DNA of 64,000 nucleotides from a virus, in the IMG/VR virus record IMGVR_UViG_3300025652_000041, positions 27,904 through 91,903 of that record. One strand, given 5' to 3'. Positions 12,018 through 53,443 of the stretch are shown piece after piece. Position 1 is the first letter of the stretch. Every line of letters starts with the position of its first letter. The notes beneath the pieces were generated by a model. That model was not told where the DNA came from, did not search any database, and saw nothing but the letters and a program-made list of their open reading frames with translations. The translations under genes were made by a program, and so were the position numbers.

Positions 12018-12232
12018 GTATTCAAGTAAATAAAAGACGAGTAGTATCTAGTGAACTGAAACCGTATTGCCATCACAGTGGTGTTAACGATTACATGGAA
12101 GTCACTCAGTGGACAAATGAAGAAGGGTTTGTCATTGTCATTGAGCGCGATCAAAGACCTGAAACGTTCAGTCTTACATATGGTGAGTTTGAGTTGTTAC
12201 AAGTGTTGATGAATTACAAGGCGAGTGAGTAA
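12014..12232 (+). CDS. Unknown small protein
   Basis: A 72-residue protein, beta-rich (Glu-Gly-Phe-Val-Ile-Val-Ile-Glu-Arg-Asp) with a C-terminal helix Gly-Glu-Phe-Glu-Leu-Leu-Gln-Val-Leu-Met-Asn. That helix recurs in the 18-codon remnant at 5986. Starts and stops overlap neighbours (ATGA, TAATG). Confidence 0.55.
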   Translation: MSIQVNKRRVVSSELKPYCHHSGVNDYMEVTQWTNEEGFVIVIERDQRPETFSLTYGEFELLQVLMNYKASE

Positions 12233-12561
12233 TGAATTTAACAGATAAAGAAATACTAGACTTTGTAAGAGAGAATCTAACACTAGGTAAAGATGAGAAC
12301 GGTCACTACATACTAAAAAAAGTCAGCTGCAATGTTGTAGGAGATGTTTTTGGCGATGTTTTTGGCGATGTCTACGGCGATGTCTACGGCAATGTTGTAG
12401 GCGATGTTGAAGGTGATGTTGAAGGTGATGTTGAAGGTGATGTTGTAGGCACTGTTGAAGGCACTGTTAAAGGCACTGTTTTAGGCAATGTTAAAGGCAC
12501 TGTTTTGGGCAATGTTAAAGGCAAGGTTAAAGGCAAGGTTTATGGTGGGGGACGTAAATAA
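12232..12561 (+). CDS. GDV tetrapeptide-repeat protein
   Basis: A protein of 109 residues. Residues 1-33 are an ordinary helical head. From about residue 35 the chain is an almost perfect four-residue repeat Gly-[Asp/Asn/Thr/Lys]-Val-x, about 18 units. The DNA repeats with a 12-base period (GGCGATGTTxxx). The second repeat position changes along the chain from Asp through Thr/Asn to Lys, so the repeat is acidic at its start and basic at its end. Such regular G-x-V-x patterns could form a left-handed beta-solenoid. The unit number could expand or contract by slippage. Function unknown; it is expressed with the early genes, so a fibre role is doubtful. Confidence 0.75.
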   Translation: MNLTDKEILDFVRENLTLGKDENGHYILKKVSCNVVGDVFGDVFGDVYGDVYGNVVGDVEGDVEGDVEGDVVGTVEGTVKGTVLGNVKGTVLGNVKGKVKGKVYGGGRK

Positions 12562-13315: not shown

Positions 13316-13690
13316 ATGATAACGTATAGCACAAACTGGATGGGCCCTGTATCTACTCGTTGGTACGAAGAACGAGATATACCTTTCGAGTTGAGAATGA
13401 CTTCTGGCAAATTCATCCAGCCACCGCGTGAATACAAACACTATCTTGAATCTTATTCGTGCGGTCGTATCGACATTCGTGGTTTAGACGAAGAAGAAAA
13501 CTACAATGGGTGGGGCGAGTATAGTGTTGCTCCTATGCGTACCGAAGACTGGAATGCGTTCAGTGATTGGTTGGATGAGTTGGAAACTTACGAGATGACT
13601 ACATACGAAGAACTGATCGATCAATTCGAGCATTACAACGGGAAATCGATAAGATGGGCAACTGGATTATTAAAAGGCGAAGATGAGTAA
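13316..13690 (+). CDS. Unknown protein
   Basis: A 124-residue protein directly after the previous stop, overlapping the first ATP-grasp gene by eight bases. Rich in Trp, Tyr and acidic residues; a central Asp-Trp-x-x-Phe-Ser-Asp-Trp-Leu-Asp-Glu-Leu helix. No family recognised. Confidence 0.55.
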   Translation: MITYSTNWMGPVSTRWYEERDIPFELRMTSGKFIQPPREYKHYLESYSCGRIDIRGLDEEENYNGWGEYSVAPMRTEDWNAFSDWLDELETYEMTTYEELIDQFEHYNGKSIRWATGLLKGEDE

Positions 13691-14825
13691 GATACTATGT
13701 ATAGACTTTGGTCTGTGTAACTTCCATAATGTAATATCTTTAGTTGAAGATGGTCATGAGGTTGTTATTGTCTCGGGGTTCTTTGATCTACCTGTAGAAT
13801 ATTACAGGAGTTTGGGGGTGGAAGTTCTATCCATCAATAAAGATAGCGTTCTTGATAAATGGGTGGAGTCGAATAAACCTGATATTGTAATATCAACTAA
13901 TCCGAGTCTTTCTTGCGAAAGATTCTCTGAGAATGCAGAATTTCTTGGTTTGACTAAAAGAGTCAATAAATTAGAAATTTATAAAATGAAGACTCGAAAT
14001 AATGTCAGGGGTCTTGGTATAAAGGTACCTAAGATATTAACTGGAAAGGATATAATAGCACCTTGTGTCGTCAAACCTAACATTTGTGGAATTGTGAATG
14101 ACACTGCCAGAATATGTCTTACTCAGAAACAACTGGATCGAATTGGATATGAAGATTGTTATGTCGAAGAATACATTGAAGGTGCTGTAGAGACCAATGT
14201 TGCATATATGATTGCAAAGGGTAAATGGTCTATCTTACATACCCAAGAGATACTCGGAGAAGATGTCGCCAAGGTAGCAGGAAACTTTACTCATTGGACA
14301 CGAACTTCAAGTTTCAAACATCTCTCTCCAGAGAACAATGAGATAGTCTTAAAGTGGGCAAAAAGATATCTCGACTGGGCTTCAAAGGAATGTACGGAAT
14401 CTTCGTATGTGGGTCAACTTACCGGACTGTTAAAGGATGGTGTTTGGTACTTCTGTGAGAATAATGTGCGACCAGAACAAACTAATAGTCTACCGATTTT
14501 CATATCGGGAAATGACTTCCTCGAAGCGATGCGAGGCAAACCGGAAATATTAGGAGACGCCTTTCCTAATGACGCACAGAAGATGATTGTTATGCCTGTA
14601 GAGGAGTATTCTCCATATCCATTCCATCTACATGAAAAACATAATGTATCAATTCCTTGTGGTCTTGATCTGGTCGATGGTGTATATCGAATATCTGATA
14701 CTTTCAAGCATAGGTCACGTGATAGAAGAATTGGTATAGTTATATGCGACCGTATTATACCTCAAGAGTTTGTGGATGATATTGTTTCGGATGGCAATTT
14801 CACAATCACTACTCGACTGGTCTAA
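13683..14825 (+). CDS. PurD-like ATP-grasp enzyme, copy 1
   Basis: A protein of 380 residues. The N-terminal pre-ATP-grasp domain starts Lys-Ile-Leu-Cys-Ile-Asp-Phe-Gly followed by Gly-His. A Cys-Val-Val-Lys-Pro strand near residue 130 provides the ATP-binding lysine. Tyr-Val-Glu-Glu-Tyr-Ile-Glu-Gly (about 160-167) is the adenine/hinge region. Cys-Glu-Asn-Asn-Val-Arg-Pro-Glu-Gln (about 260-268) holds the Mg-ligand Glu and Asn of the grasp fold, and its layout is closest to glycinamide ribonucleotide synthetase (PurD). It would join a carboxylate to an amine via an acyl phosphate. It lacks full PurD length (about 430) and motifs, so its substrate is unknown. It overlaps its paralogue by one base. 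Confidence 0.7.
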   Translation: MSKILCIDFGLCNFHNVISLVEDGHEVVIVSGFFDLPVEYYRSLGVEVLSINKDSVLDKWVESNKPDIVISTNPSLSCERFSENAEFLGLTKRVNKLEIYKMKTRNNVRGLGIKVPKILTGKDIIAPCVVKPNICGIVNDTARICLTQKQLDRIGYEDCYVEEYIEGAVETNVAYMIAKGKWSILHTQEILGEDVAKVAGNFTHWTRTSSFKHLSPENNEIVLKWAKRYLDWASKECTESSYVGQLTGLLKDGVWYFCENNVRPEQTNSLPIFISGNDFLEAMRGKPEILGDAFPNDAQKMIVMPVEEYSPYPFHLHEKHNVSIPCGLDLVDGVYRISDTFKHRSRDRRIGIVICDRIIPQEFVDDIVSDGNFTITTRLV

Positions 14826-15964
14826 TGAAGATACTGTGTATCGACTATGGGTTGTGTAACTTTCACAATCTCATTTCTCTTGTCGAAGATGGTCATAAAG
14901 TTTATGTCCTAACATCCGAAAAATACGAACTGTGCCCCACGACTTTATATAAAGAGTTGGGTATTCATATATTGGACATTGACCGGAAAAGTGTTTTAGA
15001 TAATTTCATAGAATCCGAGTCTATAGATTTGATGATATCGACAGATCCTACTATCGACATGATCAATTCATATCAACACAAATTAAAGTATATCGGACTG
15101 ACTCCACGATCCTCTAGGTTAGAAACCCATAAATGGATGACCAGATGTGAAGTTAAGAAGTTAGGAATAAAAGTCCCTGAGATACTTCCTCGACCTATTG
15201 CTCCCTGTGTCATAAAACCAATAGTCACCAAAAAGGGATTTGACCGAGTCAACATATGTCTGACCGAAGAAGATTTTGGAATCTTCGATGATAATACATT
15301 CTATGTTGAAGAGTATCTTACTGATACTATAGAGACTAATGTCGATTATATAATGTCTCACGGTAAATGGTCTATACTACATACCCAACAAAAGATCGGA
15401 GAAGACCTCGGAAAGATGTCGAATCGATTAATACACTGGACTTGTACTTCCAGTTTCGGGAAACTATCCAAAGATGATAATGATCTGGTATTGGATAACG
15501 CAAAGAAGTATCTGGACTGGGCATCCATACAATGTAATAGATCCTCGTACATTGGACAACTGACCGGTTTCATTAAAGATGGGGAGTGGTACTTCTGTGA
15601 GAATAATGTCAGACCTTCACAGACCAATAGTGTACCCTATTTCGTATCGGGAGATGAATGGTTGATGGCCATGTATGGTCACCCTGAGATAATAGGTGAA
15701 TCCTTTCCGGTAGATGTTAATAAGATGATCGTGATGCCAATGGAACCAGACTCACCATACCCGTTCGATCTACACCTAAAACATAATGTTGCGATACCCT
15801 GCGGACTCGATATAATCGATGATGAGTATCGTGTATCTTTGATGATGAGAGGAAAATCTACTGACAATAGGATTGGGTTGTTGATATGTGATGATAATAT
15901 CCCCCAAGGATTTGTCGATGATTTCCGCACCGATGGTAATTTTTCCATTACTACATTCATATAA
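14825..15964 (+). CDS. PurD-like ATP-grasp enzyme, copy 2
   Basis: A 379-residue paralogue of the preceding gene, about half identical by eye. It keeps the same blocks: Lys-Ile-Leu-Cys-Ile-Asp-Tyr-Gly at the N-terminus, Trp-Ser-Ile-Leu-His-Thr-Gln, Gly-Gln-Leu-Thr-Gly, and Cys-Glu-Asn-Asn-Val-Arg-Pro-Ser-Gln as the Mg site. Both copies retain the catalytic residues, so neither looks like a decaying duplicate. A heteromeric or sequential ligase pair is possible. The run TAATGA (shared stop and start) couples translation to copy 1. Confidence 0.7.
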   Translation: MKILCIDYGLCNFHNLISLVEDGHKVYVLTSEKYELCPTTLYKELGIHILDIDRKSVLDNFIESESIDLMISTDPTIDMINSYQHKLKYIGLTPRSSRLETHKWMTRCEVKKLGIKVPEILPRPIAPCVIKPIVTKKGFDRVNICLTEEDFGIFDDNTFYVEEYLTDTIETNVDYIMSHGKWSILHTQQKIGEDLGKMSNRLIHWTCTSSFGKLSKDDNDLVLDNAKKYLDWASIQCNRSSYIGQLTGFIKDGEWYFCENNVRPSQTNSVPYFVSGDEWLMAMYGHPEIIGESFPVDVNKMIVMPMEPDSPYPFDLHLKHNVAIPCGLDIIDDEYRVSLMMRGKSTDNRIGLLICDDNIPQGFVDDFRTDGNFSITTFI

Positions 15965-17245: not shown

Positions 17246-17961
17246 TGTTTGAACATGTACCGGTCGAATTGACTGAAATGAATGCCGTGACCACTGATAC
17301 TGGTCGCAAATACAAAACCCCCGAAGGTGTCAACCTTCCCTCTATCACTACAGTCCTTTCGATTCTGTCACGTGACAGTATTGCCAAGTGGCGTAAACGT
17401 GTAGGTGAGGCAGAGGCGAATCGTGTCTCTTATCGTGCGTCTACTCGTGGTACCTCGGTTCACGAAATCTGTGAGAAGTATGTCAACAATGACCCTGATT
17501 GGGACAAGTACATGGCAATCGACCCCGACAATGGGGAAACGAAGTTGACCAAGCGTACTCCTGACCTCATCCAATCGTTTCTTGATTTGAAACCAATACT
17601 GGACGAACGTCTGACTAAGGTCTTCGCACAAGAAGCCCCACTCTACTCCAACCATCTTGGTGTTGCGGGTCGTGTGGATTGCGTGGGTATCTTTGATGGT
17701 AAACCGTCAATCATCGATTACAAAACTTCGATGAAACCCAAACGTCTCGATTGGATTAAGAACTACTTCATGCAAGAGGCTGCATATGCCATCATGTGGG
17801 AAGAACGTACTGGTCAACCTATCACTCAGTTGGTTACTATAATCTCAGTAGACCAACATGAACCTCAAGTGTTTATTGAACATCGTGACAACTGGGTTCG
17901 TCCATTAATCGACACTATTGCACAATATAATGAGGAAAATTCTACTTCCCTTTTTGTATAA
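17245..17961 (+). CDS. PD-(D/E)XK exonuclease (RecB/Cas4-like)
   Basis: A protein of 238 residues. Ser-Ile-Thr-Thr-Val-Leu near residue 30 and Arg-Gly-Thr-Ser-Val-His-Glu-Ile-Cys-Glu-Lys-Tyr (about 70) are the N-terminal motifs of the PDDEXK_1 family. The catalytic block is Gly-Arg-Val-Asp-Cys-Val-Gly-x-Phe-Asp-Gly-Lys-Pro-x-Ile-Ile-Asp-Tyr-Lys-Thr (about 140-160), where the Asp, Asp and Lys form D...D-x-K. Ala-Ala-Tyr-Ala-Ile-Met is the QxxxY-like helix. It should degrade or trim DNA during replication or recombination. Conserved in marine T4-like phages. The late promoter of the next block overlaps its stop codon. Confidence 0.8.
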   Translation: MFEHVPVELTEMNAVTTDTGRKYKTPEGVNLPSITTVLSILSRDSIAKWRKRVGEAEANRVSYRASTRGTSVHEICEKYVNNDPDWDKYMAIDPDNGETKLTKRTPDLIQSFLDLKPILDERLTKVFAQEAPLYSNHLGVAGRVDCVGIFDGKPSIIDYKTSMKPKRLDWIKNYFMQEAAYAIMWEERTGQPITQLVTIISVDQHEPQVFIEHRDNWVRPLIDTIAQYNEENSTSLFV

Positions 17962-17964
17962 ATA
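17957..17964 (+). promoter_or_regulatory. T4-type late promoter box TATAAATA
   Basis: A perfect TATAAATA overlapping the exonuclease stop codon, 41 bases before ATG 18005. A sigma-70-like TATAAT-containing run follows but has no good -35. It probably drives the internal/structural block from 18005. Confidence 0.75.
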
Positions 17965-18004: not shown

Positions 18005-19303
18005 ATGATAGGGTTCGGAACCTTTTTATCTGAGGCATCATTAACTTTCGGAGAAATTACTCGTGAGGATAGACCTGACCGAATAGATATTTTTCTGCGC
18101 AAGTACAAAGGTAATGAACCATTCGAATTGGTTGGTGGTGACCAAGTAGTCTTTAAGTACAATGCAGAGATTGAGAAAGCTGTTAAATCAGGAAACTCTA
18201 AACTCGCACAGTCAATTGGACTCGAAACCCTAGATGGAACTAAACTCGCATTCGGTAAGTTATCTAAGACTGCCGAGTTCGGGGGTGGTCGTGGTTCGGG
18301 TGGTGGTGCAGCCAACACTCGTGCAACTGAATCTGCACAATGTGTTTATCTACAAGCAATCTGGGATAACCGGACAACTAAGTTCAGTGCGGACGATATA
18401 CGTAACGCATATCCCAAAACGCACACAGATGCGTCTCTAGATGAAGTACTTCTGGGTGATGAAGGATGGATCTCCTCTTCTATCGATATCGCAAGACTTC
18501 TTCACAAAGCTCTAGGTAAAAAACAATACAGTTTCCATCGAGGATCTGGTTGGGTTGAGATAGTAGAGAAGAAGTTCAAAGAACTGAATCGCGTCCAGAA
18601 AGCATTCGGTAATATCAACAAATGGTCTCCTGCGGACATCTACATGGTCGCAAAGGGTGCAGAGAACAAGTATGATATAGAAGGTGCAGAGTCACTAGAA
18701 TACCTGAACAACGAGTTGATGAAGGCATACACTGCACGTGATATCATCGGTGTGTCTTTGAAGAAATTGACCGGTAAAGGTAGACTTGCCCAAGTTAACT
18801 ATAAGAAACCATTCAAAGGTGCAAAGTTCACCAAGTCATCTTATGGTAAGAGGGATTTCTTCAAGTCCAAAGATGGTTACTTGTTCGGTGACGGTGGTAT
18901 TGAGATGCAGTTCCGAACCTTCCCTACCTTTCAGTGTGAGATTATCGGTAAGGCTGCTAAACACGGTAAGGTGTCTCATGGTGGTATTGATGCGGCTCTC
19001 TATGCCACAAATCGGGATAAGACCGATAATCGTAAAGAACTTGAATCATTTATAAAGAAAGATCGGGATTCATTCCTAGATAAGTTCTATGGGTTCTATG
19101 ATGGTGCAGTAAATAGTCCGGTAGACAAAGAAACCTTTAAAAAGAATCTGGAAGGTGTGACAACCGAATGGTTAGTCTCCAAGTACTATGTAACTTCTAT
19201 TTTCGTAATGATAAAAGGTAGAGAACAACAATTCATGGATTATTTATTCCGTATAGCAAAATCACAAAGTCCGCTATCTGCGGTACACCTAAAGGTACAA
19301 TAA
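18005..19303 (+). CDS. Large tagged protein, probable virion/internal protein
   Basis: A protein of 432 residues. Residues 1-11 read Met-Ile-Gly-Phe-Gly-Thr-Phe-Leu-Ser-Glu-Ala. Position for position this matches the T4 capsid-targeting sequence (aromatic at 4, Phe at 7, hydrophobic at 8, Glu at 10, Ala at 11), with a Leu-x-Glu prohead protease site. A Gly-rich flexible linker (about 98-108) separates an N-terminal domain from a mainly helical and beta C-terminal part. I recall homologues in cyanomyoviruses with no known activity. SD AGGAAATAGGT precedes ATG. It is first behind a late promoter. Most likely packed in the head; no enzymatic motif recognised. Confidence 0.65.
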   Translation: MIGFGTFLSEASLTFGEITREDRPDRIDIFLRKYKGNEPFELVGGDQVVFKYNAEIEKAVKSGNSKLAQSIGLETLDGTKLAFGKLSKTAEFGGGRGSGGGAANTRATESAQCVYLQAIWDNRTTKFSADDIRNAYPKTHTDASLDEVLLGDEGWISSSIDIARLLHKALGKKQYSFHRGSGWVEIVEKKFKELNRVQKAFGNINKWSPADIYMVAKGAENKYDIEGAESLEYLNNELMKAYTARDIIGVSLKKLTGKGRLAQVNYKKPFKGAKFTKSSYGKRDFFKSKDGYLFGDGGIEMQFRTFPTFQCEIIGKAAKHGKVSHGGIDAALYATNRDKTDNRKELESFIKKDRDSFLDKFYGFYDGAVNSPVDKETFKKNLEGVTTEWLVSKYYVTSIFVMIKGREQQFMDYLFRIAKSQSPLSAVHLKVQ

Positions 19304-19304
19304 A

Positions 19305-20024
19305 ATGGCAATATCACGATATATGGAGGGAGACAACAGCATCAATATTGCTCGTGGTCTTGTTCTCGATACAACATACGAACATAAATTTGGTGCGGTA
19401 CTTTCAATGTCAGTCTCTGAGACCGGAACTGTTTGGGATGTCGATGATACCCTATACCCTTGGTCTGCATGGGATACTGCCGGAGTTTTGACTATCCCCG
19501 CAGTGAATGCTTCGGACAATGGTGGAACGGTAACTGTGACTGGTTTAGATGCGAACTACGATGTGATAAGTGAAGATTTCGTAGTATCCAGTTCGGGAAC
19601 AACCACCGGCACCAAAACATTCAAACGTGCGTATCGTGCATTCTTTACTGATGGTACATCTAACATTGGTAATATAACTATTCAACGTGGTGGTACGACT
19701 ATCGCATTGATCAGAGCAGGTCAGGCACAAACACTCATGGCGGTATTTACTGTCCCTGAAGGACACACTGCATATATGTCTAAAGTCAGTATGAGTATCG
19801 AGGCCGGTGGTGATGCGAGTGGTAACGTGTATTCTAGAATTCCTAGCCAAACATCATTTCGTATTAAACATACCTTCGAGATCGGAGATGGTGGTCATTA
19901 CCTATATGACTTCACGGTTCCATTGAAATTCGATGCAAGGACAGATATTGATTTTAGATGTAGTATGCGAACTAACAATTCACGTGCCTCTGCTGCATTT
20001 GATATGATTCTTATCAAGGAATAG
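19305..20024 (+). CDS. Virion structural protein, beta-rich
   Basis: A 239-residue protein composed of Thr/Gly/Val-rich beta strands with no signal peptide. It starts one base after the preceding gene's stop. The repeated Thr-Val-Thr-x-Thr and Gly-Asn-Ile-Thr-Ile segments and polar, low-lysine composition are typical of head-decoration, neck or fibre beta-sandwich proteins. Unlike its neighbours it lacks the N-terminal tag. Exact structural role is unknown. Confidence 0.6.
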   Translation: MAISRYMEGDNSINIARGLVLDTTYEHKFGAVLSMSVSETGTVWDVDDTLYPWSAWDTAGVLTIPAVNASDNGGTVTVTGLDANYDVISEDFVVSSSGTTTGTKTFKRAYRAFFTDGTSNIGNITIQRGGTTIALIRAGQAQTLMAVFTVPEGHTAYMSKVSMSIEAGGDASGNVYSRIPSQTSFRIKHTFEIGDGGHYLYDFTVPLKFDARTDIDFRCSMRTNNSRASAAFDMILIKE

Positions 20025-20026
20025 TA

Positions 20027-21244
20027 ATGAAATTTGTAGATTTTATAACCGAATCCAAGAACACCCATATGACGCATATCGAAGATAAAGTCATCTATGG
20101 TGGTGTTAATGGTACACGTCAAGCAATATTTGCATTACGTGAATTGCGTGATATGCTTGCGGGTAAAGGTACTGCGGGACTGTCCACTAAGTGGGATGGT
20201 GCACCTGCTATCTTCTGCGGTCAAGATCCTACGGATGGTAAGTTCTTTGTGGCGAAGAAAGGTATCTTCAATAAGAACCCCAAGGTATACAAAACCGATG
20301 CAGATGTTGAAGCAGATACTTCTGGTGACCTCGCAGAGAAACTCAAAGATGCATTGAAGTATCTACCTGAACTTGGTATCAAAGGAGTCATCCAAGGGGA
20401 CTTCCTATTTGGTCGAGGTGATCTGGGTAAGAAGAAAATTGATGGTGTGCAGTATACTACATTCCATCCCAATACTATCGTATATGCAATACCATTTGAA
20501 CAGTCGAAGGAAGTACGCGATGCAAAAATCGGTATAGTGTGGCACACTACATATAAGGGTAAAACATTTGAATCGATGACAGCATCCTTCGGTGTAGATG
20601 TTTCTAAACTAAAAAAATCTAAAAACGTATGGTCACAAGATGCAATGTTGCGATCTGTAGATGCGACAATGACCCAACAAGAAACGGAGCAAGTAAATGA
20701 ATATCTTTCAAAAGCTGGTAAACTTTTTAACCAGATCAGTGGAACAACCCTCAGAACCCTTGAAGGAAACCCCGTCCTCGCCGGAACAATCGAAACCTTC
20801 AACAACACCTACGTCCGAAAAGGTCAAACGCCCGGCGACTCGAAAAAGCACGCCCAAGCCCTCATCAAGTACATCCAAGACAAGTACCAAAAAGAAATCG
20901 ACAAACGCAAAACCGAGAAAGGCAAGAGCGCCCAAGTCGAAAAGCGAGACGAAATCTTAAAGTTTTTCTCTCCGAAGAATCTAGAATCTCTAGAAAAGAT
21001 GTTCGATTTGCAGAAAATGATTGTACTTGCGAAACTAAAACTTATAAATAAACTTAATAGTTTAAAGAAAATTGACACATTCGTTCAAACCAAAACGGGT
21101 TACAAAGTGACTGGTGAAGAAGGTTATGTAGCAATTGACAAACTTGGTGGTGACGCAGTGAAACTTGTTGATCGTATGGAATTTTCATACAACAACTTTT
21201 CACCCGATATATTAAAGGGCTGGGACAAACCTAGTCGTAATTAA
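20027..21244 (+). CDS. Tagged nucleic-acid-ligase/nucleotidyltransferase-like protein (DUF6267-like)
   Basis: A protein of 405 residues. It opens Met-Lys-Phe-Val-Asp-Phe-Ile-Thr-Glu-Ser, a capsid-tag-like start with Ile-x-Glu. Leu-Ser-Thr-Lys-Trp-Asp-Gly places Lys55 in the KxDG motif I of covalent nucleotidyltransferases (DNA/RNA ligases, capping enzymes). Gly-Asp-Phe-Leu-Phe (about 130) fits motif III, Glu-Glu-Gly-Tyr-Val (about 365) fits motif IV (E-G-x-V), and Val-Lys-Leu-Val fits motif V. So all core ligase motifs are present, split by a long helical insertion. It may ligate or modify RNA or DNA, possibly after injection with the genome. An 87-codon gene is overprinted within it at 20697-20960. 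Confidence 0.65.
   Translation: MKFVDFITESKNTHMTHIEDKVIYGGVNGTRQAIFALRELRDMLAGKGTAGLSTKWDGAPAIFCGQDPTDGKFFVAKKGIFNKNPKVYKTDADVEADTSGDLAEKLKDALKYLPELGIKGVIQGDFLFGRGDLGKKKIDGVQYTTFHPNTIVYAIPFEQSKEVRDAKIGIVWHTTYKGKTFESMTASFGVDVSKLKKSKNVWSQDAMLRSVDATMTQQETEQVNEYLSKAGKLFNQISGTTLRTLEGNPVLAGTIETFNNTYVRKGQTPGDSKKHAQALIKYIQDKYQKEIDKRKTEKGKSAQVEKRDEILKFFSPKNLESLEKMFDLQKMIVLAKLKLINKLNSLKKIDTFVQTKTGYKVTGEEGYVAIDKLGGDAVKLVDRMEFSYNNFSPDILKGWDKPSRN
20697..20960 (+). CDS. Overprinted Lys/Ser/Pro-rich protein nested in the ligase-like gene
   Basis: An 87-residue frame in the +1 frame of the host gene. ATG 20697 has a GGAG 9 bases upstream. The first 14 residues form an amphipathic helix (Met-Asn-Ile-Phe-Gln-Lys-Leu-Val-Asn-Phe); the rest is a low-complexity basic tail of Lys, Ser, Thr and Pro ending Lys-Ser-Lys-Ser-Glu-Thr-Lys-Ser, like a histone H1 tail. 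Within these bases only, the host gene abandons its usual T- and A-ending codons for C-ending ones (ACC CTC, GTC CTC GCC, AAC AAC ACC TAC GTC), and the normal pattern resumes right after the nested stop. That is the expected mark of a second coding frame. Probably DNA-binding; not confirmed. Confidence 0.6.
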   Translation: MNIFQKLVNFLTRSVEQPSEPLKETPSSPEQSKPSTTPTSEKVKRPATRKSTPKPSSSTSKTSTKKKSTNAKPRKARAPKSKSETKS

Positions 21245-21268
21245 TGGGATAAACCAGAGGAAAACAAA

Positions 21269-21736
21269 GTGGCAAAGAAACCGCTTAGATTCAAAGATTT
21301 TACATCTGTAGATTACACTCAGTCGGGTGATGATCAACTTGCGCACAATGCTAAGAAACGCAAGAAAGATATACCTACCGGAAATACCGGAGAAGAAGTA
21401 GAGAACGAAGCACTAGACATGACCCAACGTCTTGCACGTGGTCGCATGTTTAAAAAGAACAAGGCCAAGATTGCAATGGGTCGCAAACGTGCTCAACGTA
21501 AGATTGCCTCTATGGACACTCTGAAGAAACGTGCACGAAAGGCTGCACGTAATATCCTACTCAAGAAACTTACCAAAGATACACCCAAAGGTGAACTCTC
21601 ATTGTCACGTAGACAGGACATAGAGAAGAGACTCGAAAAGAAGAAACCAGTTATCGATAAGTTATCTCGTAAACTACTACCCCAAGTACGTAAAAAAGAA
21701 ATGGAACGTAAGAAAGGTGGTAAAAGTGCCGATTAA
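21269..21736 (+). CDS. Highly basic conserved phage protein
   Basis: A 155-residue protein with a GTG start after GAGGAAAACAAA. About a third of residues are Lys or Arg, in long helices (Arg-Lys-Arg-Ala-Gln-Arg-Lys, Lys-Lys-Arg-Ala-Arg-Lys-Ala-Ala). The N-terminus has Phe-Lys-Asp-Phe-Thr, a weak echo of the tag in neighbouring genes. I recall homologues in cyanomyoviruses. A DNA-binding internal head protein is plausible. It overlaps the next gene. Confidence 0.6.
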   Translation: MAKKPLRFKDFTSVDYTQSGDDQLAHNAKKRKKDIPTGNTGEEVENEALDMTQRLARGRMFKKNKAKIAMGRKRAQRKIASMDTLKKRARKAARNILLKKLTKDTPKGELSLSRRQDIEKRLEKKKPVIDKLSRKLLPQVRKKEMERKKGGKSAD

Positions 21737-23483
21737 GAATTTCACCCAATACCTGATCGAAGAAGATCGTGAAGTTTATTTTACCTTTGGTAGAATGAAT
21801 CCTCCTACTATTGGTCACGGTAAAGTGATGGATGTACTTGCCAAGAAGTCTGGTAAATCAGACTATAAAGTATATGTCTCACAATCACAGAATCCCAAGA
21901 AAGATCCCCTATCCTACACAGATAAAGTGAAACATGTACGTAAGATGTTTCCTAAACATGCACGTCAAGTAATGTTAGATAAGGATGTCAAGTCCGTATT
22001 TGATATTGCAGTAAAACTATACGATCAAGGTTATACTAAGATCAACATGGTTGTTGGTGCAGACCGTATACGTGAGTTCGATGTATTGTTGAATAAGTAC
22101 AACGGTACAAAGGCACGTCATGGTTTCTACAATTTCAAGAAAATCAACATTGTCTCTGCGGGTGAACGTGATCCTGATGCGACTGGTGTTGAAGGTATGT
22201 CTGCGTCTAAACAACGTGAGAATGCAGCAAAGAATGACTTCGTTACATTTGCACAAGGTGTACCGAAAGGAATGTCCGATAAAGATACACGGAAGTTGTT
22301 CAATGATGTTCGGAAGGGAATGGGTCTCAAGGAAGAGTTTGAATTCAAGAATCACATTGAACTGGAAACTGTTTCTGAAACAAGAGAACAGTATGTTCAA
22401 GGTGAATTGTTTAAAGTAGGTGACACTGTTGTTATCAAAGAAAGCGATGAAATAGGAACTGTATCTGTATTGGGTGCTAACTATGTTATCGTGGAAACAG
22501 ATAACGGTAAGTTGCGCAAATGGTTAGATGCTGTAGAACTACTAGAGAAACAAGACTCAGATATCAAAGATCGTAAAGGTACACAACCTGCACGTTATCA
22601 CTCGGGACTGAAGAAGTCCACCAAAGTTGCACGTGATGCACACTTCAAGAAACACGGTAAGAAAGCAGACGATGATGACTCTGCATACAAACCCGCTCCA
22701 GGCGATGCAACAGCAAAGACCAAACCTTCTAAGTACACCAAACAGTTCAAAGACATGTATGAAGAAGTATCTCAGAAAGAACTCAATGACCTTGAAAAGT
22801 TTGCTGACCGACTACTGAACAAGTTTGATGTGGATATCGAATTTACTCGTCACTTCAAAGACCGTATGAATGACAAACGAAACAAACCTGCTATTAGTGT
22901 TGACGAGTTAGAACGTCTGTTCAAGAAGATGGCTGATAACAAGGGTAAGAAGATTAAGAAACACGGTAACAGTGAAGCGATCCTCAAGGATATGCAGTCT
23001 GACCTGAACCTACCTGTAGTTATCAACTGGAAGAACGGCGAGTTCGAAGTTGTTAACAAAACAATTATGCGTAAGAAAGCATTCAAGTCACCTGATCCCG
23101 AACTGAAGTATGAGTCTGTCGAAGAAGACATGGCTCCTCGTTGGATGAAGGATATGATCGGGTCTAAACTCAGTCCTAAAAAATACCAACATGCACTGGA
23201 TGTTCTTAGTAAGATCATTGACCGTAAGAAGAAAGAAACCGGCGGTAACCTTAGACACGGTGTTGTTTATTATGCTGGCCAGGTTGCAAAACAGTATGAC
23301 GGTGTTGACGCTAGGAATCTCGCTAAAGCATATGAGAAGAGTGTTAAAGAAGCGACTGATCCTGTAGATGCTGCCTCTCAGAAGATTGAACGTGAGAAAG
23401 AGACTGATAAGAAGAAACACGACCGTATTCTAGACCGTGCAAGACTCGCTCGCGCAAGACAAAAGAATAGGCAAACTAAATGA
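21726..23483 (+). CDS. Tagged multidomain protein with HIGH-type nucleotidyltransferase domain
   Basis: A 585-residue protein. GTG 21726 is preferred to GTG 21717 because AGGTGG lies just upstream. The tag is Asn-Phe-Thr-Gln-Tyr-Leu-Ile-Glu-Glu (Leu-x-Glu site). Residues about 18-150 form an alpha/beta nucleotidyltransferase: Phe-Gly-Arg-Met-Asn-Pro-Pro-Thr-Ile-Gly-His ([TH]xGH motif, as in NMN/FMN adenylyltransferases) and Val-Val-Gly-Ala-Asp-Arg. After about residue 225 is a KOW-like barrel, then linkers with the Pro-Ser-Lys-Tyr-Thr motif seen in other phage virion proteins, then helical domains. It should transfer an AMP or CMP to a phosphate-bearing acceptor. The large size and tag suggest packaging in the capsid. 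Confidence 0.65.
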   Translation: MPIKNFTQYLIEEDREVYFTFGRMNPPTIGHGKVMDVLAKKSGKSDYKVYVSQSQNPKKDPLSYTDKVKHVRKMFPKHARQVMLDKDVKSVFDIAVKLYDQGYTKINMVVGADRIREFDVLLNKYNGTKARHGFYNFKKINIVSAGERDPDATGVEGMSASKQRENAAKNDFVTFAQGVPKGMSDKDTRKLFNDVRKGMGLKEEFEFKNHIELETVSETREQYVQGELFKVGDTVVIKESDEIGTVSVLGANYVIVETDNGKLRKWLDAVELLEKQDSDIKDRKGTQPARYHSGLKKSTKVARDAHFKKHGKKADDDDSAYKPAPGDATAKTKPSKYTKQFKDMYEEVSQKELNDLEKFADRLLNKFDVDIEFTRHFKDRMNDKRNKPAISVDELERLFKKMADNKGKKIKKHGNSEAILKDMQSDLNLPVVINWKNGEFEVVNKTIMRKKAFKSPDPELKYESVEEDMAPRWMKDMIGSKLSPKKYQHALDVLSKIIDRKKKETGGNLRHGVVYYAGQVAKQYDGVDARNLAKAYEKSVKEATDPVDAASQKIEREKETDKKKHDRILDRARLARARQKNRQTK

Positions 23484-23752
23484 TTAATTTTAAAAAATAC
23501 CTTGCCGAAGGGCGGTATTCAGTGTATGATACACTTGACGTTAAAGAAGGATCGGATGGCATTGCAGCTAAGTCAAAGAAGTCTGGTATCTCGGTAGATA
23601 CACTGAAGAAAGTATATAACCGTGGTGTTGCTGCATGGAAGACGGGTCACCGTCCTGGCACTACCCCGCAACAATGGGGACACGCAAGAGTCAATGCGTT
23701 CATCGTCAAAAAGAAGAAAGGCAATTTAAACCACGATAAGGATCTTGCATAA
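23480..23752 (+). CDS. Tagged DUF5824-like protein
   Basis: A 90-residue protein opening Met-Ile-Asn-Phe-Lys-Lys-Tyr-Leu-Ala-Glu-Gly, an ideal capsid-tag match (aromatics at 4 and 7, Leu-x-Glu at 8-10). The body has Lys-Ser-Gly-Ile-Ser, Val-Tyr-Asn-Arg-Gly-Val-Ala-Ala-Trp and Thr-Pro-Gln-Gln-Trp-Gly-x-Ala-Arg-Val, the core of the DUF5824 family found in phages. Function unknown. ATG overlaps the previous stop. Confidence 0.7.
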   Translation: MINFKKYLAEGRYSVYDTLDVKEGSDGIAAKSKKSGISVDTLKKVYNRGVAAWKTGHRPGTTPQQWGHARVNAFIVKKKKGNLNHDKDLA

Positions 23753-23753
23753 T

Positions 23754-24071
23754 ATGAAAACATTTCAACAAATCAGAGAGAAACGCGAAGTAGTCACTTT
23801 AGGTGGAACATCTAAAACAAGTGGTGAATACTATATGGGTGATGAGGGTATCAAGAAATTGGTTGACCTATCTAAAAAGAATCCCAATATCGAGTACACT
23901 GTTAAGTCAGATAACTACGGTGACTTCAAAGCACACTGGTTGAAGAACGGTAAGTTCGCAAAACAAACTGTTGCCAATATTAACTTCGATATGGATAAAC
24001 ATAAAGTACGTGGTGTACCGAAAGGTAAGACTGTCAAGGACACTATATTTGTGGTGAGGTACACTAAGTGA
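23754..24071 (+). CDS. Tagged small protein, unknown
   Basis: A 105-residue protein opening Met-Lys-Thr-Phe-Gln-Gln-Ile-Arg-Glu-Lys: Phe at 4, Ile-x-Glu at 7-9. After the predicted cleavage it is a basic alpha/beta domain (Gly-Gly-Thr-Ser-Lys-Thr-Ser-Gly-Glu-Tyr-Tyr). No family recognised. It overlaps the next gene (GTG inside its last codons). Confidence 0.55.
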   Translation: MKTFQQIREKREVVTLGGTSKTSGEYYMGDEGIKKLVDLSKKNPNIEYTVKSDNYGDFKAHWLKNGKFAKQTVANINFDMDKHKVRGVPKGKTVKDTIFVVRYTK

Positions 24072-24970
24072 AGTCGTTTAAAGAATTGAGAGAGAAGACT
24101 CTCACTGCCGCAGAGAAAAAGAAACGGGAAGAGATTGCAAAGGCAATTGAGAAAGATGAACCTGATATGCCAATGGACAAGAAGATGGCAATCGCAACTG
24201 CGCAAGCAAAGAAAGTTGCGGAAGGTGCTGAGAAGTACACCGTCAAGAAAGGTAACATGACCCGTAAGGTCGATGGTGCGACTGCCGACAAGATGAAACG
24301 ACAAGGTTGGAAGTTGATTGCGACCGAAGGACTTGAAGAAGGGAAGATGAAAGACTTCCACGATATGGTAAAGAAAGGTATGACTGCTGCACAGATTGCT
24401 AAGAAGATTGGCATGAAAGAGAAAGATGTTGCCGACTTCATGAAAGGTATGAAAGAGTCGGTTGAACTTGAAGAGAAGATGAAAGATAAACCATACGAAA
24501 AACAAATCGGTATGGGTGATTCTCGTAGCGAAAAAGAAATTCGTGATCAGATTAGTGGTTTGAGCGATGGCACATTAAAGAAATGGGCAAGTAAACCAGC
24601 AGGACGTTTTGGTTCTAAGATTGCTAAATTACAAGATAAAGTGGTCGCTGCCGAGATGAAAAAGCGTGGTCTTAAAGAATCTGTCGAAGAAGCACGTAAA
24701 GACTCGTCTGCCGATTTATACTTCAACACATACTCTGCCGCAGTACAACACGCAAAAGCACAAGCAGAGAAGAAAGGTTTTGAGGTAGTAGAAGACGATT
24801 GGTTCAACCAAGTAACTACGGGTAAAGGTAAACCTGGCCGTGGTAAGACTACACGTCATACACTGAAGTTGACTAAGAATGACAAACCAGTACGTAAAAG
24901 TCTTTCCATTCAGGTATACAACCGTGACACTGATAAGAACCCATACGAACTTAACTTTTACGTGAGTTGA
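24068..24970 (+). CDS. Tagged helical protein, probable internal head protein
   Basis: A 300-residue protein from GTG 24068, opening Met-Lys-Ser-Phe-Lys-Glu-Leu-Arg-Glu-Lys (Leu-x-Glu at 7-9). It continues with a Lys/Glu-rich segment including Asp-Met-Pro-Met-Asp-Lys-Lys-Met-Ala-Ile-Ala-Thr-Ala, which I recall from many T4-like phages. A helix-turn-helix-like stretch Met-Thr-Ala-Ala-Gln-Ile-Ala-Lys-Lys-Ile-Gly (about 110) and a C-terminal beta domain follow. Several further [IL]-x-E sites could be cut by the prohead protease. Probably a core or injected protein. Confidence 0.6.
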   Translation: MKSFKELREKTLTAAEKKKREEIAKAIEKDEPDMPMDKKMAIATAQAKKVAEGAEKYTVKKGNMTRKVDGATADKMKRQGWKLIATEGLEEGKMKDFHDMVKKGMTAAQIAKKIGMKEKDVADFMKGMKESVELEEKMKDKPYEKQIGMGDSRSEKEIRDQISGLSDGTLKKWASKPAGRFGSKIAKLQDKVVAAEMKKRGLKESVEEARKDSSADLYFNTYSAAVQHAKAQAEKKGFEVVEDDWFNQVTTGKGKPGRGKTTRHTLKLTKNDKPVRKSLSIQVYNRDTDKNPYELNFYVS

Positions 24971-24971
24971 T

Positions 24972-25322
24972 ATGAAGAAGTTTAATCATTACAACGAAAT
25001 AGATGAACACTGCGAATGCACTGACCTGTTCGAAGACTTGGTAATAACCGAGTCCGAGTACCAAGGTAAGACGGTCAAACTTAATGACCCCATTCGTACA
25101 TCCGAGAACCCTAACAAGAAGTTCAAAGTATATGTAAAGAACGAGTCTGGTAAGGTTGTTGTGGTGAGGTTCGGTGATCCCAATATGTCAATTAAAAGGG
25201 ACGATCCAAAACGAAGAAAGAGTTTTAGAGCACGACACAATTGTGCAAACCCTGGCCCAAAATGGAAAGCAAGATATTGGTCTTGTTATCAGTGGCGCGG
25301 GGGATCTAAAGTTGACAATTAG
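24972..25322 (+). CDS. DUF5872-like protein with partial tag
   Basis: A 116-residue protein opening Met-Lys-Lys-Phe-Asn-His-Tyr-Asn-Glu-Ile, with Phe at 4 and Glu at 9 but without the [IL]-x-E spacing; Leu-Val-Ile-Thr-Glu near residue 28 is a second candidate site. The C-terminal 85 residues carry Tyr-Val-Lys-Asn, Val-Arg-Phe-Gly-Asp-Pro, Arg-Arg-Lys-Ser-Phe-Arg-Ala-Arg-His-Asn-Cys and Ala-Arg-Tyr-Trp-Ser-Cys, the DUF5872 signature of phage proteins. Basic, possibly nucleic-acid binding. The late box overlaps its end. Confidence 0.65.
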   Translation: MKKFNHYNEIDEHCECTDLFEDLVITESEYQGKTVKLNDPIRTSENPNKKFKVYVKNESGKVVVVRFGDPNMSIKRDDPKRRKSFRARHNCANPGPKWKARYWSCYQWRGGSKVDN

Positions 25323-25330
25323 TATAAATA
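25323..25330 (+). promoter_or_regulatory. T4-type late promoter box TATAAATA
   Basis: A perfect TATAAATA just after the preceding stop, 15 bases before ATG 25345. It leaves a very short leader. Confidence 0.65.
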
Positions 25331-25344
25331 CACCAATAGATCAA

Positions 25345-25641
25345 ATGGAATCCATGATGCCCAATAACGACACATCTAATCACCGATTAGATAGAATTGA
25401 ACTTAAAATCGATAAACTTGCCGAAGCTATGATTAGTCTCGCACGTACCGAGGAAAAGATCCTTTCTATGGAAAGAGAAAATCAAAATCACTTTGAACGT
25501 ATGAATCGATTTTCTCAGAAATTGGATTCTATTGAAACTAAAGTAAACGAAAATGCTCACACCGTGAGTATCATCAACAGACTATCATTTGTCGGTGTCG
25601 CTGCAATAATTGGCGCCATCGTTAAAATGATGTGGTTCTAA
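25345..25641 (+). CDS. Coiled-coil protein with C-terminal membrane helix
   Basis: A 98-residue protein. ATG 25345 is chosen because it follows the late box; the frame is open farther upstream but that part lies in the previous gene. Residues about 12-75 form a heptad-like helix rich in Glu/Lys/Arg; residues about 78-96 form a tail membrane anchor (Val-Gly-Val-Ala-Ala-Ile-Ile-Gly-Ala-Ile-Val). A C-tail anchored coiled coil of this kind could be an accessory lysis or exclusion protein; no evidence decides. Confidence 0.6.
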   Translation: MESMMPNNDTSNHRLDRIELKIDKLAEAMISLARTEEKILSMERENQNHFERMNRFSQKLDSIETKVNENAHTVSIINRLSFVGVAAIIGAIVKMMWF

Positions 25642-25655
25642 AACGGAGACTAAAA

Positions 25656-26381
25656 ATGTCAAATGAACTAAAGGGTACAATGGAGGCATATTTGTCAATG
25701 GTCTCCGAAGCAAAAAAGAAACTTGATCCAGTAAGCGATGCAGAGAACGATAAGAAGTTCAAAGATCGTAAGGACAAGGACATCGATAACGATGGAGATG
25801 TTGATTCTTCGGACGAGTTCCTGCACAAGAAACGTGCCGCAACTGATGACGCGATTGACGGTGGTAAGAAACCTGCCAAGGGCGTGAAGGAAGAGAAGGA
25901 CGAAGAGGAAGAACCTAAGAAGAAAATGCCACCCAAGAAAGATGGTGATGCAGACGAAGGTGAGACCGAAGCAGAAAAAGAAGACGATGATGCCGAAGAA
26001 GTAGAATCGGACGGTGAAGGTGACGCAAAGACACCAATTAAGAAGAAGAAGGCGACTGATACCAACCCTAAGACTTCTGATGCTACCGCAGAGATCTCTA
26101 AGATCGAATCTGTCAACCGAGTAAACACCCGTGAAGCATTCATCGAAATGTGGTCTAAGGTTGAAGAAGCTGTCAATCAGAAGAAAGGTGCAACTCCACC
26201 CGAAGAGATTGATTCAAAAGAATCACCCAAGGGTAAAGAGTTCAAGGCAAAACACAAAGTGGATAAGATTTCCCACGATGAGTTGGAAAAGATCGAAGAA
26301 CCTAAAGAACGTACTGTGAAGAAAGAAATGAAAGAGTACGAAGTCATCCGTCAAATCCTTTCTGGTAAAGCACCGGAATAA
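25656..26381 (+). CDS. Acidic/basic prohead-core-like protein with EF-hand loop
   Basis: A 241-residue protein of extreme charge. It begins Met-Ser-Asn-Glu-Leu-Lys and has Ala-Tyr-Leu-Ser-Met-Val-Ser-Glu-Ala at 11-19, a weaker tag. Near residue 45 is Asp-Ile-Asp-Asn-Asp-Gly-Asp-Val-Asp-Ser-Ser-Asp-Glu-Phe, a calcium-binding EF-hand/dockerin-type loop. Long Glu/Asp and Lys runs then follow. This composition is typical of T4-like scaffold or core components. Its exact T4 counterpart is not identifiable by eye. Confidence 0.6.
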   Translation: MSNELKGTMEAYLSMVSEAKKKLDPVSDAENDKKFKDRKDKDIDNDGDVDSSDEFLHKKRAATDDAIDGGKKPAKGVKEEKDEEEEPKKKMPPKKDGDADEGETEAEKEDDDAEEVESDGEGDAKTPIKKKKATDTNPKTSDATAEISKIESVNRVNTREAFIEMWSKVEEAVNQKKGATPPEEIDSKESPKGKEFKAKHKVDKISHDELEKIEEPKERTVKKEMKEYEVIRQILSGKAPE

Positions 26382-27653: not shown

Positions 27654-27996
27654 AACATTTACAATATACGCAGCGAAGAACTATTACAATCCCACTTGTA
27701 TCGATAGTGAAGAGTTCTTTAATGACATTAAAAGATTCAAGTATATAAAACGACTGTTGAATAAGTACACACTTTCTGGTGAGTTGTCGGAGAGACTGGT
27801 ACTGAATCATTTGATAGTTATATTTAACTGTTGGGGATTCGAATCTGGTATTGAGATGCTTGCACTCAAGATTGATCCTCCACACTGGAATGCACTTAAA
27901 CCATTCCTAATATTCTTGAAAGCAATAGACATCAACCAAGACCTGACAGGTATCAGTCTTGATCCGGTGATTGTTGAAAAACTGAGAATGATATGA
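27637..27996 (+). CDS. Conserved T4-like phage protein (DUF7207-like)
   Basis: A 119-residue helical protein, start ATG 27637 or nearby. Its core Tyr-Ala-Ala-Lys-Asn-Tyr-x-Asn-Pro-x-Cys, Glu-Glu-Phe-x-x-Asp, Arg-Phe-Lys-Tyr-Ile-Lys-Arg-Leu-Leu and Leu-Asn-His-Leu-Ile-Val-Ile-Phe-Asn is, from memory, conserved throughout marine T4-like phages. Role unknown. It overlaps the neighbouring genes on both sides. Confidence 0.7.
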   Translation: MILTHKTFTIYAAKNYYNPTCIDSEEFFNDIKRFKYIKRLLNKYTLSGELSERLVLNHLIVIFNCWGFESGIEMLALKIDPPHWNALKPFLIFLKAIDINQDLTGISLDPVIVEKLRMI

Positions 27997-37542: not shown

Positions 37543-37683
37543 ATGAGTGATTACGTTTACTACTTAGAAGAGGATGGCGAGTTTCTTGCCGAAATGATCT
37601 TCGACAGTGAACAGGATGCAATCGATTATGCCGAAGAAAAAGCAATGAAGAACTACAAGATTATTGAGTGGGACTGTGATTAA
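37543..37683 (+). CDS. Small acidic protein
   Basis: A 46-residue protein with a strong SD (AAGGAGA). Asp/Glu-rich, Tyr-rich, ends Trp-Asp-Cys-Asp. Followed by a strong terminator. No family recognised. Confidence 0.55.
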   Translation: MSDYVYYLEEDGEFLAEMIFDSEQDAIDYAEEKAMKNYKIIEWDCD

Positions 37684-52384: not shown

Positions 52385-52533
52385 TGCCTAGTATAGATGA
52401 TGTGATAGAAATCAGTAAAAAGTTCGGTGAGTTTATAAAGTACACTTGTGTTGATTTTAAAGCTGTTTGGGAGTTCCGACCCAACGTACTTATTTGGTGT
52501 GGTATTGCATTCTTGATTGCCTGTTTTGTATAA
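52384..52533 (+). CDS. Small membrane-tail protein
   Basis: A 49-residue protein with one C-terminal transmembrane helix (about 32-48). Starts in the previous stop (ATAATG). Its stop codon lies inside the late promoter box of the next gene. Confidence 0.55.
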   Translation: MPSIDDVIEISKKFGEFIKYTCVDFKAVWEFRPNVLIWCGIAFLIACFV

Positions 52534-52536
52534 ATA
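52529..52536 (+). promoter_or_regulatory. T4-type late promoter box TATAAATA
   Basis: A perfect TATAAATA 35 bases before ATG 52571, overlapping the stop of the preceding gene. Confidence 0.75.
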
Positions 52537-52570: not shown

Positions 52571-53443
52571 ATGCAATCTTTTAACACATTCTTAAAAGAA
52601 GAGACCTTCCTCTCAGAAGAATCGGAAGCGTTACTTGAAAAACTCATTACCTTTGGTGGTAAAGCATACCCTAAGTTTGGTAACATTGTTATCATGGCCG
52701 GTGGTGCGGGTTCTGGTAAAGGATTCATTCTGAGTAATCTGGTAGGTATCGAAGGAAAGACTTTCGATGTGGATGAGTTGAAGAAACTTGCAGCTAAGAC
52801 ACCTGCGATCCAGAAACGAGTCAAGGACGAACTCGGTGTGGACATTTTTAAATTGTCACAGAACCTAAAAGACCCCAAGAACGTAGAGAAACTTCATGAA
52901 ATCATTGGTATCTATCTAAAGACTGATAAGTCCAAAGAGAGGTTATTCTATCGTTCTGTATTGACCGCACCTGTTGATCGTAAACCAAACATTATCTTCG
53001 ACATGACCTTCAAGGAATTGTCTAAGTTGGAGAAGGTTGCGAATGATGCGTCTAAGTTAGGTTACGATAAAAAGAACATCCATATCGTATGGGTTGTGAA
53101 TGATATCGAAGTTGCGAAGGCACAGAATGCGAAACGTGCACGTGTTGTACCTACCGAGATTCTTGTCAATACTCACCGTGGTGCAGCTAACACTATGGGT
53201 GATATCATCAACATGGGTAACAAACTCAAGAAGTATATGGATGGGGATATCGTATTCGCATTCAACAAAGTTGGTGTAGATGCGAATCTGGAGAAGTCTG
53301 GTAAGGGTGGTTCATACGTCAAAGACGCAAACTACTTCTATGTCAAGAGAGCAGGTAAACCACCTACTCCCGTTGACCAATTAGATAAAGATATTCGTTC
53401 TAAGATTGCAGGTTATGTACCTAAGAACGTAGACTGGAACTAA
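52571..53443 (+). CDS. Tagged P-loop kinase (zeta-toxin-like)
   Basis: A 290-residue protein. It opens Met-Gln-Ser-Phe-Asn-Thr-Phe-Leu-Lys-Glu-Glu, an ideal capsid-tag match with a Leu-x-Glu cleavage site. Residues about 42-51 are Ala-Gly-Gly-Ala-Gly-Ser-Gly-Lys-Gly, a Walker A; Asn-Ile-Ile-Phe-Asp-Met-Thr (about 138) is the Walker-B-like strand, and Ala-Lys-Arg-Ala-Arg-Val-Val-Pro the lid arginines. It is most like zeta-toxin/polynucleotide-kinase type kinases. It stands alone behind a late box, away from the other tagged genes. It probably phosphorylates a nucleotide or nucleic-acid end, possibly after injection. Confidence 0.7.
   Translation: MQSFNTFLKEETFLSEESEALLEKLITFGGKAYPKFGNIVIMAGGAGSGKGFILSNLVGIEGKTFDVDELKKLAAKTPAIQKRVKDELGVDIFKLSQNLKDPKNVEKLHEIIGIYLKTDKSKERLFYRSVLTAPVDRKPNIIFDMTFKELSKLEKVANDASKLGYDKKNIHIVWVVNDIEVAKAQNAKRARVVPTEILVNTHRGAANTMGDIINMGNKLKKYMDGDIVFAFNKVGVDANLEKSGKGGSYVKDANYFYVKRAGKPPTPVDQLDKDIRSKIAGYVPKNVDWN

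Follow-up and report, generated by a model that had tools for sequence, protein, structure and literature searches.

Why do proteins with unrelated bodies, encoded side by side in one phage genome, begin with a similar short peptide? The question is raised by a window of 64,000 nucleotides (positions 27,904 to 91,903 of the IMG/VR virus record IMGVR_UViG_3300025652_000041, which comprises 91,903 bases and is possibly a fragment), in which a unit of genes at 18005-25322 and a separate gene at 52571 encode products with such a start; genes are named here by their start position in the window. The peptide, called the tag below, probably is a T4-type capsid-targeting sequence that is used as an exchangeable address label. 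Since the tag closely resembles the label by which T4 loads proteins into its head, the tagged proteins are probably packed and may enter the next cell together with the viral DNA. The nearest named phage record was C48C1 (Kyanoviridae), with 68% identity over the DUF6267 protein.

A strict form of the tag exceeds chance in the window

An earlier note on this stretch listed nine N-termini fitting F-x-x-[FYIL]-x(1,2)-E (genes 18005, 20027, 21726, 23480, 23754, 24068, 24972, 31062, and 52571), seven of them with an [IL]-x-E triplet. The pattern was literally true for all nine, and the triplets were correct as written. As stand-alone evidence, the broad pattern was dropped. Broad-only matches were at chance in the window (5 vs 4.89 expected), T4 (11 vs 10.25), and S-CREM2 (7 vs 5.48), and about twice the expectation in C48C1 (13 vs 6.97) and S-SZBM1 (13 vs 6.84, above all 100 shuffles).

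Two narrower forms were scored. The strict form was M-x(1-5)-[FY]-xx-[FYLM]-[ILMFV]-x-E, with alternative starts allowed in the per-genome counts; the second form was M-x(1-3)-F-x-x-[IL]-R-E, a regular expression drawn up post hoc, when the data had already been seen. The open reading frames (ORFs) of the window came from a simple caller, which returned 116 ORFs and left out genes 24972 and 31062. The strict form was found in 7 of the 116 ORFs, compared with a shuffle mean of 0.52 and a maximum of 3 in 100 shuffles. Of these seven matches, two are probably spurious, namely a start internal to the ORF at 25632 and a 46-amino-acid (aa) ORF at 37543; the remaining five are genes 18005, 20027, 21726, 23480, and 52571. 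The second form was carried by genes 23754 and 24068, neither of which fitted the strict one. The listed tags of the remaining two genes are weak. That of gene 24972 has the look of a degenerate copy; in the body cluster F5, the strict form is present in 4 of its 9 relatives (its window copy lay outside the clustered set, and the kinship was judged by eye), and the literal pattern match was the sole support for a tag in gene 31062 (56 aa). The basic protein at 21269, absent from the earlier list, was a homologue of a tagged family, and its own tag looks decayed. Genes 18005, 19305, 20027, 21269, 21726, 23480, 23754, 24068, and 24972 all lie on one strand.

The unit and the kinase gene are laid out as follows (a slash stands after the tag Glu).

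17957..17964, +: TATAAATA, T4-type late promoter, 48 bases before gene 18005
18005..19303, +: tagged 432-aa protein, MIGFGTFLSE/A..., no assigned function; phrog_1462
19305..20024, +: untagged 239-aa protein inside the unit; phrog_8198; homologues S-CREM2 gp176 and S-SCSM1 44538 in virion lists
20027..21244, +: tagged DUF6267 protein, MKFVDFITE/S..., KWDG at residues 55-58; PF19782 E=1.4e-104
21043: further exact TATAAATA inside the unit
21269..21736, +: very basic 155-aa protein, decayed tag LRFKDFTSVD; homologue of cluster F4, by eye
21726..23483, +: tagged cytidylyltransferase-like protein, ...NFTQYLIE/E, start GTG at 21717 or 21726; PF01467, phrog_3041
23480..23752, +: tagged 90-aa DUF5824 protein, MINFKKYLAE/G; PF19141 E=3.1e-20
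23754..24071, +: protein with second-form tag, MKTFQQIRE/K
24068..24970, +: 300-aa Lys-rich protein with second-form tag, MKSFKELRE/K
24972..25322, +: 116-aa protein with degenerate tag, MKKFNHYNE; phrog_7595, cluster F5
25323..25330, +: TATAAATA directly after the tagged unit
52529..52536, +: TATAAATA, 42 bases before gene 52571
52571..53443, +: tagged P-loop/zeta-toxin-like kinase, MQSFNTFLKE/E, apart from the main unit; PF06414, phrog_5268

Right after the unit, at 25656-26381, an acidic protein with a DxDxDG-like stretch was observed. It contains an internal tag-like MEAYLSMVSE that is kept in relatives, and the virion lists searched contained no homologue of it.

The tag is shared by unrelated bodies and is gained and lost

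The frequency of the tag was further monitored in a related set made up of 80 related IMG/VR loci, the window, and C48C1 50001-100000, with 1742 ORFs scored at their longest start. The strict form headed 195 of the 1742 ORFs vs 2.98 expected (homologues and near-identical contigs included), and the second form headed 30 vs 0.14 expected. None of the 234 minus-strand ORFs of the related loci had a strict tag. In single genomes, strict matches numbered 7 of 195 ORFs in C48C1 (shuffle mean 0.89, maximum 4; one match starts inside a helicase gene), 5 of 214 in S-CREM2 (0.83, maximum 4), 3 of 213 in S-SZBM1 (0.66, maximum 3), and 4 of 273 in T4 (1.24, maximum 4). The T4 matches were ipII, ipIII, gp61.1, and a weak e.5; recovery of ipII and ipIII by the window-tag expression is a likeness to the T4 system, and its failure to match ipI and Alt is a difference.

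Among these, the 54-aa T4 gp61.1 (NC_000866 18966-19130) starts with MKTFKEFIKE, which is nearly identical to the capsid-targeting sequence, and may be an unrecognised internal head protein.

When the bodies (residue 15 on) of the 297 tagged ORFs of either form were clustered, 40 clusters were obtained, 23 of them with strict-form members; the 40 include 20 singletons and probable chance matches to the second form, and the largest may fuse unrelated low-complexity proteins. At least two strict-form clusters (F28 and F36) are probably spurious. Sharing among unrelated bodies, a property of a capsid-targeting sequence, is seen in these 40 clusters.

The anatomy of the tag was then read from homologous N-termini without use of any tag expression. 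In 56 distinct DUF6267 strings, F was kept in 53, [FY] in 50, [IL] in 55, and E in 55; in 36 distinct kinase strings, F4 was kept in 35, [FY]7 in 29, [LI]8 in 28, and E10 in 34. The residues between these positions varied in both families. Duplicates were dropped from these counts, as were DUF6267 loci in which the anchor was missing or the upstream sequence too short (80 to 56) and kinase loci whose match starts elsewhere than at Met (80 to 36), so that intact starts are favoured. According to PMC9026906, mutagenesis of the T4 IPIII tag showed that targeting depends on residues 4 and 7, and processing on residues 8 and 10. The conserved positions of the window tag are the same ones, an aromatic residue at 4 and 7, [IL] at 8, and E at 10, and the likeness to the T4 sequence claimed in the earlier note is therefore supported at its four functional positions.

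Strict tags were present in 62 of 80 DUF6267 homologues (gene 20027), 19 of 20 phrog_1462-like homologues (gene 18005), and 42 of 80 kinase homologues (gene 52571). Many of the homologues missing the strict form had close variants or were truncated, and some kinase homologues had no recognisable tag. DUF6267 was untagged in S-SZBM1, S-CREM2, S-SCSM1, P-SSM4, ACG-2014h, and S-CAM1, and tagged in Stenotrophomonas phage DLP6. The cytidylyltransferase lacked a strict tag in GAP32, Cr30, DLP6, ACG-2014h, and S-CAM1, and had one in P-SSM4 and S-CRM01. A split-off piece in ACG-2014h, annotated like T4-GC_190, begins MKDFKKLRE, and a similar-looking piece follows in S-CAM1. These comparisons indicate that the tag is a module, gained and lost within families.

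The tagged bodies include enzyme-like domains

The earlier note had read a ligase-like fold, a nucleotidyltransferase, and a P-loop kinase among the bodies. Two of these domains scored above Pfam cut-offs. Gene 21726 matched PF01467 with 22.9 bits (cut-off 21) and phrog_3041 with E=3.6e-70, and gene 52571 matched PF06414 with 31.8 bits (cut-off 22.3) and phrog_5268 with E=2.6e-109, which supports a predicted cytidylyltransferase domain in the former and a predicted zeta-toxin-type P-loop kinase domain in the latter. Gene 23480 matched the C-terminal end of the phage cytidyltransferase profile (phrog_3041 positions 611-673). For gene 20027, the KxDG motif of the polynucleotide ligase superfamily was found as KWDG (K55, W56, D57, G58), invariant in 41 aligned homologues, all at least 70% identical to the window protein. 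In the VIA comparison of the DUF6267 model (predicted local distance difference test, pLDDT, 71), the top row was an RNA-editing ligase (Z 6.8, root-mean-square deviation 2.9, 101 residues). Since the further RNA and DNA ligases (Z 4.7-5.7) were interspersed with unrelated rows, the ligase-like fold of this model is graded as suggestive only. Foldseek gave no match for the DUF6267 model at E<=0.001, and a comparison of DUF6267 with PDB sequences gave nothing credible. The profile phrog_455 matched both DUF6267 (first half) and the cytidyltransferase (second half).

The other bodies gave fewer assignments. The model of the 18005 protein (pLDDT 80.7) had no useful match in Foldseek or VIA (best VIA Z 2.7); its motifs NKWxPADI and GVSLKK may be nuclease-like. 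The cytidylyltransferase had 0 matches among PDB sequences, and NCBIfam gave 0 families across 9 proteins. Of 10 proteins submitted to PADLOC, the S-CREM2 kinase alone gave matches. Many tagged bodies matched nothing in Pfam, and a Pfam search with ten tagged bodies from related loci gave one clear match, a zeta-toxin-like protein. Relatives also carried tagged bodies of a SAM-lyase-family protein (E=2.3e-19) and of protein-kinase-like proteins, the latter below the Pfam cut-off. In Caulobacter phage Cr30 (locus L204, 10344-10664), a 106-aa protein with the tag MKTFKQFFNE had a weak PARP-like match (E=0.0018, below cut-off) and is possibly an Alt-like ADP-ribosyltransferase. Because the tagged bodies of relatives are SAM-lyase-family, protein-kinase-like, zeta-toxin-like, and weakly PARP-like, the description of the cargo as a set of nucleotide-transfer enzymes was too narrow, and a joint programme of nucleotide transfer would be a guess.

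The nature of the bodies also bears on the alternative that the tagged proteins are parts of the scaffold core or of head assembly, docked by the tag and inactive in the next host, as may in part be the case for T4 IPIII. In its favour, a number of tagged products, or proteins akin to them, are either small or rich in Lys and low in complexity (21269, 24068), and T4 IPIII mutants show head-assembly aberrations (PMC9026906). However, some bodies are enzyme-like and the tagged set varies among related contigs, both of which fit cargo better than structure. We regard this alternative as unlikely, although it fares best among those considered.

Late promoters and the head protease signature

If the tag directs proteins into the head, the tagged genes should be expressed late, with the head genes. 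The tagged unit at 18005-25322 is bounded by exact copies of TATAAATA at 17957 and 25323. The number of copies in the window (9 vs a shuffle mean of 4.18, with nine reached in 5 of 100 shuffles) is unremarkable by itself; what stands out is their position. Upstream of gene 18005 homologues, TATAAATA was found in 20 of 20 cases, at 35-66 bases (local background 1.8%), and within 120 bases upstream of gene 52571 homologues it was found in 66 of 77 (local background 0.6%; three too-short loci dropped). DUF6267, which lies inside the unit, had it upstream in 4 of 78 homologues (background 3.2%). In hand-picked lists for C48C1, TATAAATA preceded 8 of 28 structural genes vs 1 of 21 replication or metabolism genes. 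Promoter sequence thus supports late expression alongside the head genes. Across all strict-tagged ORFs of related loci, the excess of TATAAATA was small (36 of 229 vs 99 of 987 others).

We also counted [IL]-x-E sites, the cleavage motif, in head proteins. Compared with shuffles, the scaffold was rich in them in C48C1 (17 vs 7.5), S-CREM2 (15 vs 5.0), S-SZBM1 (14 vs 7.8), and T4 (16 vs 5.8), and the protease protein was enriched in all four phages (P 0.000-0.040). The capsid protein was enriched (P<0.05) in three of the four, S-SZBM1 excepted, and the portal, tail sheath, and TerL of these phages had no enrichment. T4 gp23 reads SFLTE at 61-65, of which FLTE/A is presumably the capsid-protein cut site; its counterparts were FLTE in C48C1, LLTE in S-CREM2, and ILTE in S-SZBM1, ending at residues 57, 56, and 52. 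A gp21-type prohead protease is annotated in C48C1 and three cyanophages, and the scaffolds of the three tested were [IL]-x-E-rich. These counts support the view that the relatives' head proteins look like substrates of an [IL]-x-E protease.

Tagged proteins in virion lists of relatives

If the tagged proteins are packed, they should be over-represented in purified virions. The S-CREM2 list comprises 52 proteins of 219 CDS (Table 3 of PMC10665884). Four of the five strict-tagged S-CREM2 proteins were in the virion (gp6, gp14, gp136, and gp154; gp199 was undetected), compared with 48 of 214 others (P=0.012). Four tag patterns were tried on this list and all are given: the other three yielded 5/7 (P=0.0091), 4/4 (P=0.0029), and 5/8 (P=0.02). 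Outside the structural blocks, the strict form gave 3 of 4 vs 10 of 132 (P=0.0026). The detected gp12 (annotated Cas9-like) and gp13 carry tag variants missed by the strict form, and several further detected non-structural proteins had no tag variant. When S-CREM2, S-SZBM1, and S-SCSM1 were pooled, 6 of 12 strict-tagged proteins were in the virion vs 2.27 expected (P=0.014). For S-SZBM1, protein length was used to assign the mass spectrometry rows to genes, 27 of the 30 uniquely, and S-SCSM1 virion flags were taken from GenBank product and note text (47 flagged vs 45 in the paper).

As a separate observation on gp12 (OR473000), its tag-like FASFMAE lies at residues 19-25, and the annotated start may lie too far upstream; no Pfam match was found at E<=0.1, and the Cas9 label is unconfirmed.

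Homologues of the window genes were searched in all 219 S-CREM2, all 218 S-SZBM1, and only 16 of 282 S-SCSM1 proteins. Homologues of gene 21726, all tagged, were in the virion lists of all three phages, homologues of gene 19305 in two of the three, and untagged DUF6267 homologues in none of the three. Moreover, S-SM1 virions are reported to hold the putative cytidylyltransferase T4-GC190 (PMC3037559), and the member of this cluster from P-SSM4 is tagged. The tag is likewise carried by the kinase of S-CRM01, for which PMC10665884 cites a report from virions.

Several observations weigh against packaging. Taken alone, S-SCSM1 (1 of 4 strict-tagged proteins in the virion vs 46 of 278 others) and S-SZBM1 (1 of 3, with 30 virion proteins of 218) had no significant association. 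Three convincing small tags, two in S-SZBM1 and one in S-SCSM1, were undetected; the other undetected matches, two in S-SCSM1 and one in S-CREM2, may be spurious. The gene 18005 homologue found in one virion list (S-SCSM1) is untagged. In PMC3037559, the cytidylyltransferase T4-GC190 is given as undetected in S-PM2 virions, and the 14 S-CREM1 virion proteins, as summarised in PMC9964418, include no NMNAT/cytidylyltransferase although the map legend names NMNAT. Searches for a portal and a protease in the window's 91,903-base record gave no match and are uninformative, since the controls matched nowhere. Furthermore, the authors of the S-CREM2 and S-SCSM1 studies note that such enzymes are possibly carry-over from infected cells (PMC10665884, PMC9602691).

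This last caveat, the lack of association in S-SCSM1 and S-SZBM1 singly, and the S-PM2 result would all fit an alternative in which the virion enzymes are indeed carry-over and the tag serves some other purpose, for instance the binding of a late assembly partner outside the head. Nevertheless, detection in S-CREM2 tracks the tag, and the same tagged family was recovered in three separate studies, so that this alternative appears improbable. For the packaging proposed in the earlier note, the virion lists of relatives serve as a partial test: the tagged cytidylyltransferase was present in three of three lists tested and tagged proteins were enriched in the S-CREM2 virion, and the enzyme was undetected in S-PM2. 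That the tag is a general feature of late genes or translation starts, or a helix for dimerisation, with no link to packaging, is very improbable, because even though many tags start M-K-x-F, AT-rich starts are common in such phages, and the broad pattern mostly stood at chance, composition-preserving shuffles fail to yield the strict form, the constrained positions are the functional ones of T4, and tagged proteins are over-represented in the S-CREM2 virion.

Proposed mechanism and relation to known systems

With an address label of the T4 type, the tagged proteins would be made late, alongside the head proteins, and the aromatic residues of the tag (T4 positions 4 and 7) would dock them to the scaffold core of the prohead. 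Cleavage after the tag Glu by a gp21-type phage protease would follow, the trimmed proteins would remain in the head beside the DNA, and they would pass with it into the next host, where they may act at the very start of infection. A wider proposal is held more tentatively, as a possibility that falls somewhat short of even: T4-superfamily phages beyond the T-evens, Kyanoviridae included, may run a modular system of injected effectors, in which enzymes gain and lose a two-form exchangeable label ([FY]-xx-[FY]-[IL]-x-E and F-xx-[IL]-R-E), a given family is cargo in one phage and intracellular in another, and the cargo has its effect at time zero, on nucleic acids and on host regulation.

That T4 has a capsid-targeting sequence, and that foreign cargo can be packed with it, is well known (PMC9026906, PMC3012670). 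The T4 sequence is carried by IPI, IPII, IPIII, and Alt and is cut by gp21; IPI is an injected anti-restriction protein (PMC9026906/PMC3012670), and IPIII is required on one E. coli strain (PMC9391042). The window tag is likewise a short N-terminal peptide, common to unrelated bodies, in which two aromatic residues, [IL], and E stand at the functional spacing. The window phage and its cyanophage relatives differ from T4 in having several enzyme-like bodies per phage and the second form [IL]-R-E, as known here from sequence. Compared with T4, what is new is apparently that a label of this kind sits on more proteins, in a set that changes more readily. The signal of P1 DarB is also N-terminal and sends its protein into the head, but no consensus is described for the Dar proteins in PMC9024508, whereas that of the window tag spans many families. 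The head propeptides of phiKZ and SPN3US are removed after Glu by the prohead protease and have a proposed capsid-targeting role, but are mostly far longer and have an A/S-x-E motif (PMC5694885). Cyanophage NMNAT/cytidylyltransferases, the family of gene 21726, and kinases are known from several virions, but no packaging signal was named for them, and the words 'N-terminal' and 'targeting' are absent from the accessible text of PMC10665884. In the open-access literature, as far as its accessible text goes, no published tag was found in cyanophages or comparable T4-like phages.

If the address label is real, the proteins that travel in the particles of many T4-like phages could be predicted from sequence alone by a rule some ten residues long. 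Such a rule would account for the cyanophage virion enzymes (cytidylyltransferase, kinases, SAM-lyase-family, and Cas9-annotated proteins) that their finders could not separate from carry-over, and would flag candidate early anti-defence or takeover proteins in families of unassigned function.

Other features of the window

Elsewhere in the window, a predicted protein with short tandem repeats (GDVFGDVYGDVEGDV...) lies at 12232-12561. Two neighbouring similar genes at 13683-15964, encoding 380 and 379 aa, form an apparent tandem duplication.

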